DNA of 64,000 bases. Source: Daejeonella sp. JGW-45. Its GTDB lineage: Bacteria > Bacteroidota > Bacteroidia > Sphingobacteriales > Sphingobacteriaceae. The notes below the pieces were generated by a model. That model saw only the letters and a program-made list of their open reading frames with translations. It ran no database searches and was not told where the DNA came from. Numbering within the stretch: the stretch's first letter is position 1; every line of letters starts with the position of its first letter. The stretch is taken from positions 62,001 to 126,000 of the forward strand of contig NZ_JARKNC010000002.1 in assembly GCF_029360805.1 (NCBI RefSeq), given 5' to 3'. Of this stretch, positions 16,971 to 46,810 are shown piece by piece. A program made the translations under genes and the position numbers.

Positions 16971-17187
16971 CTGCTCCGGGGAGGAGATCCCCGATCAAGT
17001 CGGGGAAGAGCAGCTCCTACTTCATTACGATAATGACACAGTTAATCGAGTACTACCTGCTCTGGAGGAAATCCCCAGTCAAGTCGGGGAAGAGCCGCTC
17101 CTACTTCAGTACGATAATGACACAGTTAATCGAGCACTATCTGCTCTGGAGGAAATCCCCAGTCAAGTCGGGGAAGAGCCGCTCCTA
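16971..17187. repeat. 84-bp tandem repeat, about 2.6 copies
   Basis: Copies begin at 16971, 17057 and 17141; the shared core TCAAGTCGGGGAAGAG recurs at 16995, 17079 and 17163, exactly 84 nt apart. Each copy contains a hairpin (CCCCGA or CCCCAG, loop TCAAG or similar, then TCGGGG) nested within AGGAG/CTCCT arms. The first copy has a 2-nt insertion near its start. An open frame runs through it only because 84 is divisible by three. Confidence 0.92.
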
Positions 17188-17198
17188 ACTCATTTCCG

Positions 17199-17240
17199 AC
17201 CTCATACCTCATACCTCATACCTCATACTTCATACCTCAG
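17199..17240. repeat. ACCTCAT heptamer array covering the fbp stop codon
   Basis: Six heptamers in strict phase: four ACCTCAT, one ACTTCAT and one ACCTCAG. The last unit contains the TGA stop of fbp (17237-17239, minus strand). Confidence 0.9.
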
Positions 17241-21899: not shown

Positions 21900-22054
21900 G
21901 TTATACGTTTTACGTTGTACGTTTTACGTTGGGGCACGGAAAGTCAAACGTGGTTAAGTTCTGAGCCCTGAGTTTTGGTGAGCAGCCTCGTTTTAAATCT
22001 CCCGTTATTGCTAAGCTTAGCAAACGTAAAACGTTACAACCTATAACTTACAGC
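21900..22054. repeat. Paired heptad arms between purL and glutamine synthetase
   Basis: Left arm 21900-21934 has five heptamers of GTTATAC/GTTTTAC type. Right arm 22026-22054 has the inverted form (GTAAAAC, CTATAAC, TTACAGC, with one 8-nt unit). Between them near 21962-21980 are further CTGAGCC/CTGAGTT heptamers. The region lies between two divergent genes. The rest of the 325-nt gap is AT-rich with no recognised gene. Confidence 0.85.
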
Positions 22055-24567: not shown

Positions 24568-24743
24568 GCTTCGAGACTCGGGGCAGAATCGTTCGTATCT
24601 GGTTCTATAAGGATCAGCGAAAGATCCGGGAAAGATCCGGGACACATTCGATGATTTCCCGAAGCCTTCCCGGAACTGTCTCGGAACTTTCCCGGAACTG
24701 TGTCGAACCAAATACGAAGGAATCTCCTAGCGTTCCCGAAGCA
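24568..24743. repeat. 176-nt quasi-palindrome with 11-nt units
   Basis: In the 527-nt gap between glutamine synthetase and purM. Left-arm TTCGTATCTGGTTC (24592-24605) pairs with GAACCAAATACGAA (24705-24718) with one mismatch around a centre near 24655. Inside, the left arm repeats the 11-mer AAGATCCGGGA and the right arm repeats a TTCCCGGAACT-like unit, and pairing continues outward to CTTCG/CGAAG ends. The remainder of the gap is AT-rich with no gene. Confidence 0.85.
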
Positions 24744-31896: not shown

Positions 31897-32001
31897 ATGA
31901 GCATTTTCTGTTCTGTAACATTTTCAATGTTAAGATAATATTAAATATGCTGATTTACACATTCCTATAATAATGGGTGCTGTAATTTTTTTCCACATTT
32001 T

Positions 32002-32137
32002 GGGTTATGGGCTGTGGGTTGTGAGCTGTGAGCTTCTTGAAAATGACTATACTTCAGCATTAGTAATGATGCAGCGAAAAAGCCCATGACTCATTGCTCA
32101 TTGCTCGTTGCTCATAGCTCATTTCCAATTGCCCATA
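32002..32137. repeat. Paired heptad arms between TonB receptor and lpd
   Basis: Left arm 32002-32036 has five heptamers (GGGTTAT, GGGCTGT, then GAGCTGT type). Right arm 32082-32137 has eight in phase, mostly GCTCATT-like, beginning GCCCATG and ending GCCCATA. Read in reverse complement, the right arm gives TATGGGC and ATGAGC units like the left arm. It lies between divergent starts and its last units carry the -33 TTG of the lpd promoter. The rest of the 354-nt gap holds the receptor promoter and AT-rich sequence. Confidence 0.9.
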
Positions 32138-32159
32138 TAAAACAAATTATCTAAGTTTG
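32129..32159 (+). promoter_or_regulatory. Promoter of lpd
   Basis: TTG (32129-32131), 20-nt spacer and TAAGTTTG (32152-32159), a good match to the Bacteroidota consensus, 34 nt upstream of the lpd ATG. The TTG lies across the junction of the last two heptamers of the repeat array. Confidence 0.8.
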
Positions 32160-33582: not shown

Positions 33583-33584
33583 AT

Positions 33585-33671
33585 AACTGAAAGCTGAAAA
33601 CTGGAAACTGAAATATTAGACGCCTACCCTTCAGTTTTCAGCTTTCAGTTTTCAGTTTTCAACTCTCAACT
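33585..33671. repeat. Perfectly phased heptad hairpin between lpd and SMR gene
   Basis: Left arm 33585-33612 has four heptamers of AACTGAA/AGCTGAA type starting two bases after the lpd stop. Right arm 33630-33671 has six (TTCAGTT/TTCAGCT, then TTCAACT and CTCAACT). Units 33585-33605 can pair with 33630-33650 over 21 bp with one G-T pair and a 24-nt loop. The right arm ends three bases before the next ATG. Confidence 0.92.
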
Positions 33672-33674
33672 CCT

Positions 33675-34848: not shown

Positions 34849-34983
34849 GTTGTACGTTATACGTTTTACGTTATAAGTCTGGGCGGTCAGCGTATGGCTT
34901 ATAGATATTTGGTAACCTGGCAAGTTTCCTAATACCCTATACCTAACACCTAACACCTAATACCTAATACCTAACACCTCATA
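34849..34983. repeat. Two unlike heptad arms between MBL hydrolase and aldo/keto reductase
   Basis: Left arm 34849-34876 begins directly after the hydrolase stop with four heptamers of the GTTGTAC/GTTATAC family and then GTCTGGG. Right arm 34928-34983 has eight CCTAACA/CCTAATA heptamers; its last unit contains the reductase stop codon (34979-34981, minus strand). Unlike other loci, the two arms are not reverse complements. Confidence 0.9.
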
Positions 34984-35962
34984 CCGCCACTGCCTCCGGC
35001 TTCGTTCCCGTGATCCGGTCAATTTCCTGCATAAGCTCATCGCTTAACAGCGGAACAATATCCAAGGACGTTAACGTTTCTTTTAACTGATGCGTTTTCG
35101 ATGCACCGAGAATAACGGTACTTACGTTCGGATTCTTTAAACACCAGGCTATAGCAAGTTTTGGCAGGCTTGTACCGAGCTTATCGGCCAGCATCTTGAG
35201 CTGCCTGATTTTGTTCAGATTCTCCTCTTTAAGCCAGCGGTCTCTTAGCCATCCCAGGCTTTCCATTTTAAACCTGGTATCAGTTGGGTCAGCGTCCAGA
35301 TATTTCCCCGAAAGCATACCTGACGCCAGGGGGCTCCAAATGGTAGTACCCATCCCGAAATTCCGGAAGAGAGTCAGGAAATCTCTCTCGAGCTTATCTC
35401 TCCATAGCATGCTGTACTGGGGCTGCTCCATTACCGGTGCAATAAGATGATTCTTTTCAGCAAAATAATGTGCTTCCATAATCTCTGCGGCACTCCATTC
35501 GGAAGTACCCCAATAAAGGGCTTTACCCTGCATGATGATCTGATGCATCGCCCAAACGGTTTCCTCGATAGGCGTCTCGGGATCTGCCCGATGACAGAAA
35601 AGCAGATCGAGATGATCCAGCTGCAACCGTTTAAGAGCATTGTCCGTTCCTTCGAACAGATGTTTTTTGGAAAGGCCGATCATGTTCGGTTTCTTTTCTT
35701 CTGCACCAAAATAGATCTTGCTTGAAACAATATAGGAACTGCGATCCCAGTTTTTCTTCTTTAAAATATTTCCCATCACAATTTCCGACTTGCCTCCGGC
35801 GTAACCCTCGGCATTGTCGAAGAAATTCACCCCGCTGTCATAAGCAAGGTCCATAAGTTCTTCTGCGATCTTATCCTCTATCTGATTACCGAATGTAAGC
35901 CAGCTGCCAAGAGAAAGCGCGCTTACCTTTAAACCGGATCTACCTAAACGTCTGTATTCCAT
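34979..35962 (-). CDS. Aldo/keto reductase (Kv-beta/YghZ-like)
   Basis: 327 residues. NADPH-dependent reductase of carbonyl compounds with a TIM barrel. Visible: RRLGRSGLKVSALSLGSW, the catalytic Asp/Tyr in NFFDNAEGYAGGKSE, the Lys in IVSSKIYF, the His in LLFCHRAD, and the C-terminal cofactor loop VILGASKTHQLKE. The length and the GxSGLKVS start place it with AKR6/AKR14 (voltage-channel beta/YghZ). Monocistronic. Its stop codon lies in a heptamer array. Confidence 0.93.
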   Translation of the reverse strand: MEYRRLGRSGLKVSALSLGSWLTFGNQIEDKIAEELMDLAYDSGVNFFDNAEGYAGGKSEIVMGNILKKKNWDRSSYIVSSKIYFGAEEKKPNMIGLSKKHLFEGTDNALKRLQLDHLDLLFCHRADPETPIEETVWAMHQIIMQGKALYWGTSEWSAAEIMEAHYFAEKNHLIAPVMEQPQYSMLWRDKLERDFLTLFRNFGMGTTIWSPLASGMLSGKYLDADPTDTRFKMESLGWLRDRWLKEENLNKIRQLKMLADKLGTSLPKLAIAWCLKNPNVSTVILGASKTHQLKETLTSLDIVPLLSDELMQEIDRITGTKPEAVAV

Positions 35963-39685: not shown

Positions 39686-39804
39686 GGAGGTGTGAGGTGT
39701 GAAGTGTGAGGGAATAGGGATTAGGGAATAGGGATTTCCGACATCGATAGGTACAGGTGTCTGCCACGTTCAGACCTCCGATTTCAGACTTCAGACCTCA
39801 AATA
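39686..39804. repeat. Paired heptad arms between smc and rnpB
   Basis: Left arm 39686-39734 has seven heptamers that drift from GGAGGTG/TGAGGTG to ATAGGGA/TTAGGGA, starting one base after the smc stop. Right arm 39770-39804 has five (TCAGACC/TCAGACT type), ending six bases before the rnpB -7 box. In reverse complement the right arm reads GGTCTGA, close to the GGTGTGA phase of the left arm. Confidence 0.9.
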
Positions 39805-39810
39805 ATTCCG

Positions 39811-39818
39811 TATCTTTG
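39811..39818 (+). promoter_or_regulatory. -7 box of rnpB
   Basis: TATCTTTG matches TAnnTTTG and lies directly upstream of the P1 helix of RNase P RNA. No TTG at -33; that position is occupied by heptamers. Confidence 0.75.
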
Positions 39819-39820
39819 CA

Positions 39821-40213
39821 GAGCAAGCTGTTCTATCGCTGTCCGCCATGAGCGGAGAGAGGAAAGTCCGGGCAACACAGGGCATCCTGCTTCCTAACGG
39901 GAAGGTCCCGCGTCATGCGGGAACGGAAAGTGCTACAGAAAACAAACTTCCTCCAACCCTTAGGTTGGTGGTAAAGGTGAAAACGTGAGGTAAGAGCTCA
40001 CGGTCTTCCCGGGCGACCGGGATTACGGTAAACCCCAGGAGTTGAAAGACCAAATAGGTTCCGGAAGCGAAGCGGCCCGCTTACTTTTCCCGTACGTACG
40101 GGATTCTCCGGAATGGGTAGGTCGTTAGATCACGTGAGCAATTGCGTGGCCAGATAAATGATAGAAGTCCCGCTAATGCGGGAATACAGAACCCGGCTTA
40201 CAGGCTTGCTTTT
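39821..40213 (+). ncRNA. rnpB: RNase P RNA, class A
   Basis: Catalytic RNA that matures tRNA 5' ends. The universal 5' signature GAGGAAAGTCCGGGC is at about 39856-39870 and the 3' signature ACAGAACCCGGCTTA ends near 40200. GGTAAGAGCTCAC, ACGGTAAACCCC and AAATAGG are further conserved core segments in the expected order. P1 closes by pairing AGCAAGC (39822-39828) with GCTTGCT (40204-40210). About 393 nt, type A length. Three of its stems are TCCCG...CGGGA palindromes. A strong terminator follows. Confidence 0.96.
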
Positions 40214-40226
40214 AAAAAAGAATCAG

Positions 40227-41711: not shown

Positions 41712-41890
41712 GTTGTACGTTATAAGTTATACGTTGTACGTGCAAAACGGACATATGCAACTTATAACGTATCACGTAAAACTTACAACGTAGGGTACGT
41801 ATGCAAACTTATAACGTACAACGTATAACTTACAACGTTTAGGTACATATGCAAACTTACAACGTATCACGTATAACTTACAACGTTTTA
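41712..41890. repeat. Large heptad array with a 46-48-nt higher-order repeat
   Basis: From one base after the regulator stop to within the end of pntB. Left part 41712-41746: GTTGTAC/GTTATAA heptamers. From 41755 the inverted family (ACAACGT, ATAACGT, ATAACTT) appears in three blocks, each opening with ATGCAA at 41755, 41801 and 41849. The last block supplies the pntB stop codon and the codons before it. Confidence 0.92.
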
Positions 41891-44781: not shown

Positions 44782-44875
44782 GAATTGTGTAGCTGCTTGA
44801 TGGTTATTTCCTAAAATAGCTAAAAGAATGCTTTGGTTTGCAGCGCATCAAAAAAAATACATTAGGAAGTAATAA

Positions 44876-45011
44876 GTTATACGTTTTACGTTGTAAGTCT
44901 GGGGCAGATAGGAAGGCTTCTTGTTTGAGGAAGTCCCGTTCTAAAAAAAAATTCTGTTCACTAGCTAAAAGTTCTAACGTACAACGTATAACTTACAACG
45001 TAAAACGTATC
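44876..45011. repeat. Paired heptad arms between pntAa and lepA
   Basis: Left arm 44876-44903: GTTATAC, GTTTTAC, GTTGTAA, then GTCTGGG. Right arm 44979-45011: GTACAAC, GTATAAC, TTACAAC, GTAAAAC and a partial unit GTATC. The last partial unit merges into the lepA -7 box. The GTCTGGG end recurs in the array at 34849. Confidence 0.9.
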
Positions 45012-45015
45012 TTTG
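45008..45015 (+). promoter_or_regulatory. -7 box of lepA
   Basis: TATCTTTG matches TAnnTTTG and ends seven nucleotides before the lepA ATG, predicting a leaderless or nearly leaderless mRNA. Its first bases belong to the last heptamer of the array. Confidence 0.7.
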
Positions 45016-45022
45016 CGCCTCG

Positions 45023-46810
45023 ATGAAGCACATACGTAATTTTTGCATAATAGCACATATTGATCACGGTAAAAGCACTTTAGCTGACCGTCTTCTTGAG
45101 TATACCAATACCATAACCCAGCGCGAATCACAGGCCCAGTTACTGGACGATATGGACCTTGAACGTGAGCGTGGTATCACCATAAAAAGCCATGCCATTC
45201 AAATGGATTACATCCTGGATGGGCAAGCTTACGTATTAAACCTGATCGATACCCCGGGACACGTTGATTTTTCTTATGAAGTTTCACGATCCATTGCCGC
45301 CTGCGAGGGTGCGCTATTGATTGTTGATGCATCACAGGGAATCCAAGCGCAGACTATCTCTAATCTTTATCTCGCCCTGGAGCATGATCTTGAGATCATT
45401 CCGATATTAAACAAAATGGATCTTCCGGGTGCTATGCCCGAAGAAGTTAAGGACCAGATCATCGAGCTGATAGGCTGCAAGCGTGAGGAGATTATCCCCG
45501 CTTCCGGCAAAACCGGAATGGGTGTAAATGATATATTAAAAGCTATAGTTGAAAGGGTGCCTGCGCCTAAGGGAAATCCTGATGGAGAGTTGCAGGCGCT
45601 TATTTTCGATTCTGTTTTTAATTCGTTCCGCGGCATAGTAGCCTATTTCAAAGTACTAAATGGTGAGATCCGCAAGGGTGACAAAGTTAAGTTTGTTGCT
45701 ACCGACAAGGATTATATAGCTGAAGAAGTTGGTACGCTAAAACTTACTCAGAAGCCAAAAGATGTGATCAAAACGGGCGACGTGGGTTATATTATTTCAG
45801 GCATTAAAGAAGCCCGCGAGGTTAAGGTCGGCGATACGATAACGCACAAAGAAAAGCCAAGCAAGGAGCCTATCAAGGGATTTGAAGAGGTGAAGCCAAT
45901 GGTTTTTGCCGGGATCTACCCGGTAGATACGGATGAATACGAAGAGTTGCGTGAGAGTATGCACAAACTTCAGCTCAACGATGCATCGATCGTGTTTGAA
46001 CCTGAATCTTCGGCTGCCTTAGGGTTTGGCTTTCGCTGCGGTTTCCTGGGAATGCTTCACATGGAAATTATCCAGGAGCGGCTGGAGCGTGAATTCGACA
46101 TGACGGTTATCACAACTGTTCCAAACGTTTCATACAAAGCATTTACTTCGAAGGGCATTGAGATCGATGTTCACAATCCTTCAGACCTGCCGGATCCAAG
46201 TAAACTCGATCATGTTGAAGAACCATACATCAAGGCAAACATAATTACCAAGTCGGAGTTTGTCGGTCCGATCATGTCGCTGTGTATACAAAAGCGTGGT
46301 ACGATCATCAACCAGTCTTACTTGACCTCCGATCGTGTAGAGCTTATCTTCGAGATGCCAATGGGTGAGATTGTATTTGATTTTTATGATCGTTTGAAAA
46401 CAATCTCTAAAGGTTATGCATCCTTCGACTATCACCAGATAGGATACCGGCAGTCAGACCTGGTCAGACTTGACATTCTGCTGAACTCCGAACCGGTAGA
46501 TGCCTTGTCATCCTTAATTCATCGCACCAATTCATATACTTTCGGCAAGAAAATTTGCGAAAAACTGAGAGAGCTTATCCCGCGTCAGCAATTTGAAATT
46601 ATTATACAAGCATCTATCGGGGCGAAGATCATTGCCAGGGAAACAGTAAAGGCTTTGCGAAAAGATGTTACGGCAAAATGTTACGGCGGTGATATTTCCA
46701 GAAAACGTAAGCTCCTGGAAAAACAAAAGAAAGGTAAAAAGCGCATGCGCCAGGTGGGCAACGTGGAAATACCACAAACAGCCTTCATGGCAGTACTAAA
46801 GCTTGATTAA
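45023..46810 (+). CDS. lepA: Elongation factor 4 (LepA)
   Basis: 595 residues, full length. A ribosome-binding translational GTPase linked to initiation and elongation under stress. G motifs: [14 protein letters not shown] (G1), RGITIKSHA (G2), DTPGHVDF (G3), NKMDLPGA (G4) and SGKTG near G5. The C-terminal LepA-specific domain ends [15 protein letters not shown] and AFMAVL. folD follows 83 nt downstream on the same strand. Confidence 0.98.

Follow-up and report, generated by a model that had tools for sequence, protein, structure and literature searches.

Sections of Rehm et al. 2015 (PMC4692102) describe heptamer repeats of the quadruplex-forming GGGNATC and GGGGA(C/T)T types from Xanthomonas and Nostoc, with the G-rich strand being sense within 50 bp after stop codons or antisense within 50 bp before start codons. 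According to the same sections, the repeats lie closer to the 5′ ORF whatever the orientation of that ORF, form inverted pairs (70 and 75 cases), show a preference for four units, are rare between divergent genes and occupy the same intergenic regions in related species, where the repeats themselves have varied; the functional role of the GGGNATC repeats is described there as still to be elucidated. In passages of MacGregor 2015 (PMC4679880), TAACTGA direct repeats are reported from Beggiatoaceae, Cyanobacteria and five Bacteroidetes, with one dominant unit positioned within several nucleotides of start codons. Among the open-licence PMC papers listed by our searches, we found no account of such arrays in Sphingobacteriaceae.

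The window analysed here is a 64 000 bp stretch (G000:C3:62001-126000) of the 4.10-Mb genome of Daejeonella sp. JGW-45 (G000). Arrays were detected by scoring period-p matches in an 800 kb sample of G000, with TRF also run, and genes were taken from our own ORF and hexamer script (622 genes) rather than from an annotation. The added samples were 400 kb of G018 (1.2 Mb when pooled with G000), the sister of G000 and the closest array-bearing genome by the proteins of the lepA, rnpB and lpd regions; 396 kb of a further congener, G014, tested only after the polarity rule given below had been fixed; and G001. The polarity of each arm was called by G minus C, 'G-type' denoting the strand with G>C. 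Period 7 returned 68 intergenic arrays in the 800 kb of G000, compared with 0-1 for each of periods 5, 6, 8, 9 and 10 and 12 for period 11; three shuffles returned no period-7 arrays. The period-7 arrays are far above chance. Those of the window, with the elements that they flank, are as follows.

17199-17239, minus strand: ACCTCAT arm entering the 3′ end of a minus-strand gene (TRF and detector)
21900-21930, plus strand: GTTTTAC-type arm in a divergent region (TRF and detector)
31998-32034, plus strand: left arm at lpd, GGGCTGT/GAGCTGT units (period-7 detector)
32090-32122, minus strand: right arm at lpd, CTCATTG on the plus strand (TRF and detector)
32129-32159, plus strand: putative lpd promoter, TTG at 32129-32131, N20, then TAAGTTTG at 32152-32159
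33587-33672, unstranded: inverted arm pair from 4 nt past the lpd stop to 2 nt before the next ORF (-35.5 kcal/mol)
34849-34985, unstranded: convergent region, GTTRTAC arm directly past one stop and rc(TAGGTRT) arm at the other
39687-39734, plus strand: left arm at rnpB, GAGGTGT then AGGGAAT units, 2 nt past the smc stop codon (detector and TRF)
39777-39800, minus strand: right arm at rnpB, TTCAGAC units on the plus strand
39811-39818, plus strand: -7 box of rnpB, TATCTTTG
39820-40216, plus strand: rnpB, RNase P RNA class A (Rfam RF00010, 264.2 bits)
41712-41888, unstranded: convergent region, GTTRTAC left arm and several inverted arms (TRF and detector)
44867-44898, plus strand (G>C strand): left, G-type arm at lepA, GTTRTAC family (period-7 detector)
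44976-45009, minus strand: right, inverted arm at lepA, AACGTAC on the plus strand (TRF and period-7 detector)
45008-45015, plus strand: -7 box of lepA, TATCTTTG
45023-46810, plus strand: lepA, translation elongation factor 4 (NCBIfam TIGR01393, 992.6 bits)

The identities of smc and lpd were also confirmed by NCBIfam. An earlier note on this DNA had described only the right arms at lepA, rnpB and lpd, the partner arms (44867-44898, 39687-39734 and 31998-32034) being missing from it, and had placed these arms against or within the promoter. At lepA, the units AACGTAC AACGTAT AACTTAC AACGTAA AACGTAT continue into the box, and the array does supply its first bases (TAT), as had been claimed; however, the last unit (AACGTAT, 45004-45010; TRF end 45009) is complete and not the partial heptamer that had been proposed. 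At rnpB, the box is indeed identical to that of lepA, but 39800 is the final base of the last clear heptamer, leaving a gap of 10 nt to the box rather than the six bases given previously. The -33-like TTG of lpd is in heptamers, as described, but these are decayed units (CTCATTT CCAATTG) beyond the array edge, which is put at 32122 by the detector and at 32123 by the period-7 row of TRF, while its period-21 row extends to 32137. The TT at the lpd -33 position is retained in array-bearing genomes.

The -7 boxes themselves look real on sequence grounds. All three fit TAnnTTTG, the -7 element of the Bacteroidota sigma-A promoter as set out in parts of PMC9723704 and PMC7366714, and the arrays are no part of the promoter so defined. 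For lepA, rnpB and lpd alike, the box is found at the same place in 19/19 same-genus genomes, where a relaxed match was permitted (e.g. TATATTTA in G007) and the set of 19 varies slightly by gene. The arrays at these sites vary: those of G018 are built from a different heptamer family at all three, arrays are also present at rnpB in G012 and in G021 (a genome from outside the genus), and the other genomes compared have no array at the three sites, apart from one weak stretch of AT-rich sequence at lepA in G010. The boxes are thus kept with or without arrays, so a promoter role needs no array.

The idea that the arrays are promoter parts, occupying the -33 region and setting promoter strength, draws on some real observations: the array touching the box at lepA and coming near it at rnpB, a further box lying 5 nt from an array at G000:C3:314532-314664, and a conserved upstream TTTg, present 12 nt before the lepA box in most array-free congeners, which the array has displaced in G000. 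Because it stands in place of this TTTg, the array fills promoter spacer DNA at lepA, and to that extent the earlier proposal that arrays fill the -33 place holds, but it does not extend to a rule. In 18 upstream regions a TAnnTTTG box shares its intergenic region with an array, and in four of them box and array overlap or lie no more than 8 nt apart (3.7 expected; 2/12 in G000 with 2.7 expected, 2/6 in G018 with 1.0 expected), a count from which rnpB is absent because the gene caller sees ORFs only. Contact at this chance level means that arrays abutting -7 boxes, as the note had generalised, is not a rule of the arrays. TATCTTTG itself occurs four times in the window, which is no enrichment over the 3.06 expected, and only two of the four lie at arrays. 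Array edges within 40 nt of a start number 15/75 (21.1 expected; G000 and G018), and divergent regions are poor in arrays (see below). With boxes conserved in the absence of arrays and no excess of arrays at boxes or starts, we consider a contribution of the arrays to promoter strength very unlikely. For work on Bacteroidota promoters, this means that such arrays should not be taken for -33 elements.

The placement of the arrays points elsewhere. When 106 arrays of G000 and G018 were placed against gene ends, with random placement in the same region as the expectation, 39/137 array edges lay within 3 nt of a stop codon (5.0 expected), as opposed to 2/75 within 3 nt of a start codon (2.3 expected). 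Arrays mostly sit right behind stop codons, and promoter contact is a side effect. Of the intergenic regions of 60 bp or more in the same two genomes, 27/86 convergent, 38/333 tandem and 9/143 divergent ones hold arrays. In G014, 11/44 arrays lie within 10 nt of a stop (3.2 expected), and arrays crowd starts too (8/38 within 10 nt, 2.1 expected).

Polarity follows the gene edge. Past a stop codon, the sense strand of the arm is the G-type one in 44/48 cases in G000 and G018 and in 11/11 in G014, where the arms before starts are C-type in 9/11 with two ties. Expressed as a single rule for arrays within 60 nt of a gene edge, the strand pointing outward from the closest such edge is G-type in 102/111 (G000 45/48, G018 27/33, G001 8/8, G014 22/22; ties set aside), including 29/29 where that edge is a start. 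For other genera the figure is 17/23, from 77 of 80 named loci (three congener records omitted) in which arrays are few and weak. Where an intergenic region holds both polarities, the G-type arm comes first and the arms face each other in 31/31 regions of G000, G018 and G001, covering all four gene orientations, and in 5/5 of G014.

Several of these pairs are predicted to fold well. Five of the six stretches of the window that we folded were far better than their shuffles: the arms at lepA (20-bp stem, -44.4 kcal/mol, z -5.98), rnpB (-46.6 kcal/mol, z -4.67) and lpd (-46.7 kcal/mol, z -4.92), and the stretches 33583-33674 (z -8.69) and 41712-41780 (z -3.33). The sixth, 34849-34985, folds worse than its own shuffles (z +1.64), failing to pair because its arms belong to different families. 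Across 82 intergenic regions, a complementary partner (score of at least 12) was present on the expected side in 42 and on the opposite side in two. Pairing is nonetheless loose: in 9/31 facing pairs the longest arms fall short of a score of 12, with little pairing between them, and permuting the heptamers of one arm gave p<0.05 at 0/31 loci, so the unit order is not mirrored and base pairing is not finely maintained. By the same result, templated copying of one arm from the other was rejected; the two are separate arrays, although they usually come from the same family.

A stem-loop past a gene is also the form of an intrinsic (Rho-independent) terminator, but the heptamer arms differ in being about 20-80 nt long, in their large loops and in always having the G-type arm first; terminator-like hairpins here are C-first in 53 cases, G-first in 39 and equal in 14. 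With a crude detector, and hence a weak test, intrinsic terminators did not differ significantly between sites with and without arrays, giving no clear signal that arrays replace them.

Beneath the variety of units lies a common pattern. We oriented by G minus C and phased 157 arrays (from G000, G018, G001, 20 further 20-kb stretches and nine named loci), which yielded the skeleton nAGtTrT with 3.57 bits, compared with a mean of 2.24 and a maximum of 2.32 bits in 20 column-shuffled controls. The commonest units, AAGTTAT, ACGTTAT, CAGTAAT and AAACTGA, are without GGG. The presence of stop codons in all frames was considered as the cause of the skeleton and rejected, as 87/157 units have this property compared with 52 % of permuted ones, which is no excess. 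Searching 121 Sphingobacteriaceae genomes with the skeleton pattern AGNTNTNAGNTNTNAGNTNT returned 0 to 211 matches per genome. Matches far exceed those of the reversed control in G000 (184 vs 4), G001 (183 vs 0), G012 (169 vs 6) and G140 (193 vs 9), many genomes are near zero, and in a few the control equals the pattern (e.g. G019, 74 vs 68). Array density is patchy even inside the genus, and the scarcity or lack of arrays in many congeners argues against an essential function.

Turnover is visible at short range. Comparing 52 orthologous intergenic regions that reach 60 bp in G000, G018 or both, we find an array in both genomes in ten, in G000 alone in four, in G018 alone in three and in neither in 35; against the more distant G001, 7/28 regions carry one in G000 alone and no region carries one in both genomes. 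Between G000 and G018, the two arms at lepA have switched family together, as have those at lpd, as judged by eye. In G002 and G008, which are about 93 % identical over the lepA region, a shared array keeps its family while its units differ.

These arrays therefore share with the Rehm repeats, as described in the sections cited above, a 7-nt intergenic tandem unit, an outward G-rich polarity, a position nearer the 5′ ORF, inverted pairs, under-representation in divergent regions and recurrence at the same intergenic sites of related genomes with altered repeats. Unlike those G-quadruplex formers, most units here lack GGG and belong to many families built on nAGtTrT, under which GGGAATC is not special (19 % of heptamers score as high). 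In the case of the MacGregor repeats, TAACTGA, which on the other strand reads CAGTTAT, falls in the top 0.43 % of heptamers under the skeleton, a comparison that was chosen after seeing the data and with a skeleton set that already held a few CAGTTAT arrays. CAGTTAT arrays occur in the congener G001, this being one of many units in the set. Forward TAACTGA before starts, the arrangement given in those passages, has the polarity found here, whereas our arrays differ in having many units and in lying mainly at stop codons in G000 and G018, with G014 crowding starts. The Sphingobacteriaceae arrays are a variant of the Rehm/MacGregor kind without quadruplex units. That mostly non-quadruplex heptamers obey the placement and polarity rule of quadruplex repeats suggests a cause independent of quadruplexes, which is testable in cultivable Sphingobacteriaceae.

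The placement, polarity and facing pairs, the capacity for hairpins and the independence from the promoter box are shown by these data, and the arrays are very probably gene-edge rather than promoter elements. A full element consists of a pair of heptamer tandem arrays in an intergenic region, most often from the same family and directed towards each other, with the nAGtTrT strand pointing outward from the gene edge (sense past a stop, antisense before a start). Such arrays probably grow, shrink and switch family through 7-nt slippage, and the conserved boxes suggest that selection may halt the outer edge, at the stop codon or, at lepA and rnpB, at the -7 box. Where the intergenic region is transcribed, same-family arms could pair into a long hairpin in which the G-type arm leads. 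A role as a hairpin or in read-through is plausible, although that the hairpin carries functional weight is a tentative proposition, which we put at somewhat below even. The likeliest effect, if there is one, would be on mRNA 3′ ends and read-through rather than on promoter recognition. Taken as a whole, gene-edge elements with facing arms, acting if at all on 3′ ends and read-through, are the explanation that we favour, with modest rather than strong confidence.

The arrays might instead be neutral slippage repeats without function that fill unselected intergenic DNA up to selected boundaries, their polarity reflecting a mutational strand bias. The patchy density of the skeleton over the 121 genomes, the difference in family between the sisters at 3/3 loci, the independence of heptamer order between arms and the lack of excess of all-frame-stop units are each consistent with this. 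Strand bias alone, however, fails to explain 36/36 facing pairs in all four orientations and leaves the same-family arms unexplained, and we regard this account as unlikely, if worth keeping in mind. Facing ends are likewise what would be expected of a REP- or MITE-like mobile palindrome that carries heptamers at its ends and is mobilised by a transposase, and two inner words, ACTAGACGCT (in four array neighbourhoods, shuffled maximum two) and CTAGACGCT (intergenic in 8/8 cases in 1.2 Mb), fit such an origin. Yet no common core was seen between the arms, only scattered shared words, and the Y1 transposase PF01797, the one family searched, was not found in the array-rich G002, G018 and G095, making this origin highly improbable. 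The same searches, which covered 20 chosen genomes, did not find reverse transcriptase (PF00078, RVT_1) in the array-rich G001, G002, G012, G118 and G140 or Ku (PF02735) in the array-rich G001 and G002, so that their absence from several array-rich genomes argues against three obvious makers of the repeats, reverse transcription and Ku end-joining included.

With the outward strand G-type in 102/111 arrays, the inward strand is C-type, and transcripts entering a gene from outside would carry a C-rich, G-poor strand with a C every 7 nt, as might a Rho-loading (rut-like) barrier. Rho prefers YC steps, however, and the commonest families (e.g. the AYAACGT strand) have AC steps instead; same-family arms would moreover bury the site inside a hairpin. 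We give a barrier of this type very little credence. The facing polarity, the same-family but unordered arms and the promoter contact would all be accounted for if the pairs were head-to-head joins within one widespread bacterial phenomenon of polarised nAGtTrT heptamer arrays, a phenomenon that would take in the Sphingobacteriaceae arrays, the TAACTGA repeats and possibly the GGGNATC repeats. Broken intergenic ends would each be extended 3′-ward by repeat-making synthesis and then fused, in a manner reminiscent of telomere fusions, and intergenic DNA would thereby be trimmed as far as the stop codon or -7 box. As a joint proposal, this is a long shot.

Besides the facing arms, some shared sequence and coding features were observed around the arrays. 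The 3′ end of 40/1593 genes touches an array in the G000, G018, G001 and G014 samples; in 28 of these 40, the array enters the ORF, and the heptamers encode the last codons, often including the stop. An inner word, GTCTGGGCGG, follows several GTTRTAC arms (e.g. window 34877-34886 and G000:C3:394498-394507) and has 18 exact copies genome-wide, compared with four for the reversed pattern. An 84-bp unit repeated 2.5 times at window 16980-17187 contains CCCCAGTCAAGTCGGGGAAGAG; CTCTTCCCCGACTTGA words related to CCCCAGTCAAGTCGGGGAAGAG recur adjoining heptamer arrays elsewhere, with nine of ten CTTCCCCGAC places in 1.2 Mb being intergenic, in the manner of a REP-type palindrome.

Finally, period-11 direct repeats of the TTCCCGGAACTGTC type lie upstream of a gene both at window 24609-24705 and in the orthologous stretch of G018 (C10:935012-935056). 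They are not flush with stop codons and form a set separate from the heptamers. Unlike the fast-changing heptamers, they are similar in sequence between G000 and its sister G018, and their spacing of once per helical turn suggests a candidate regulator site.
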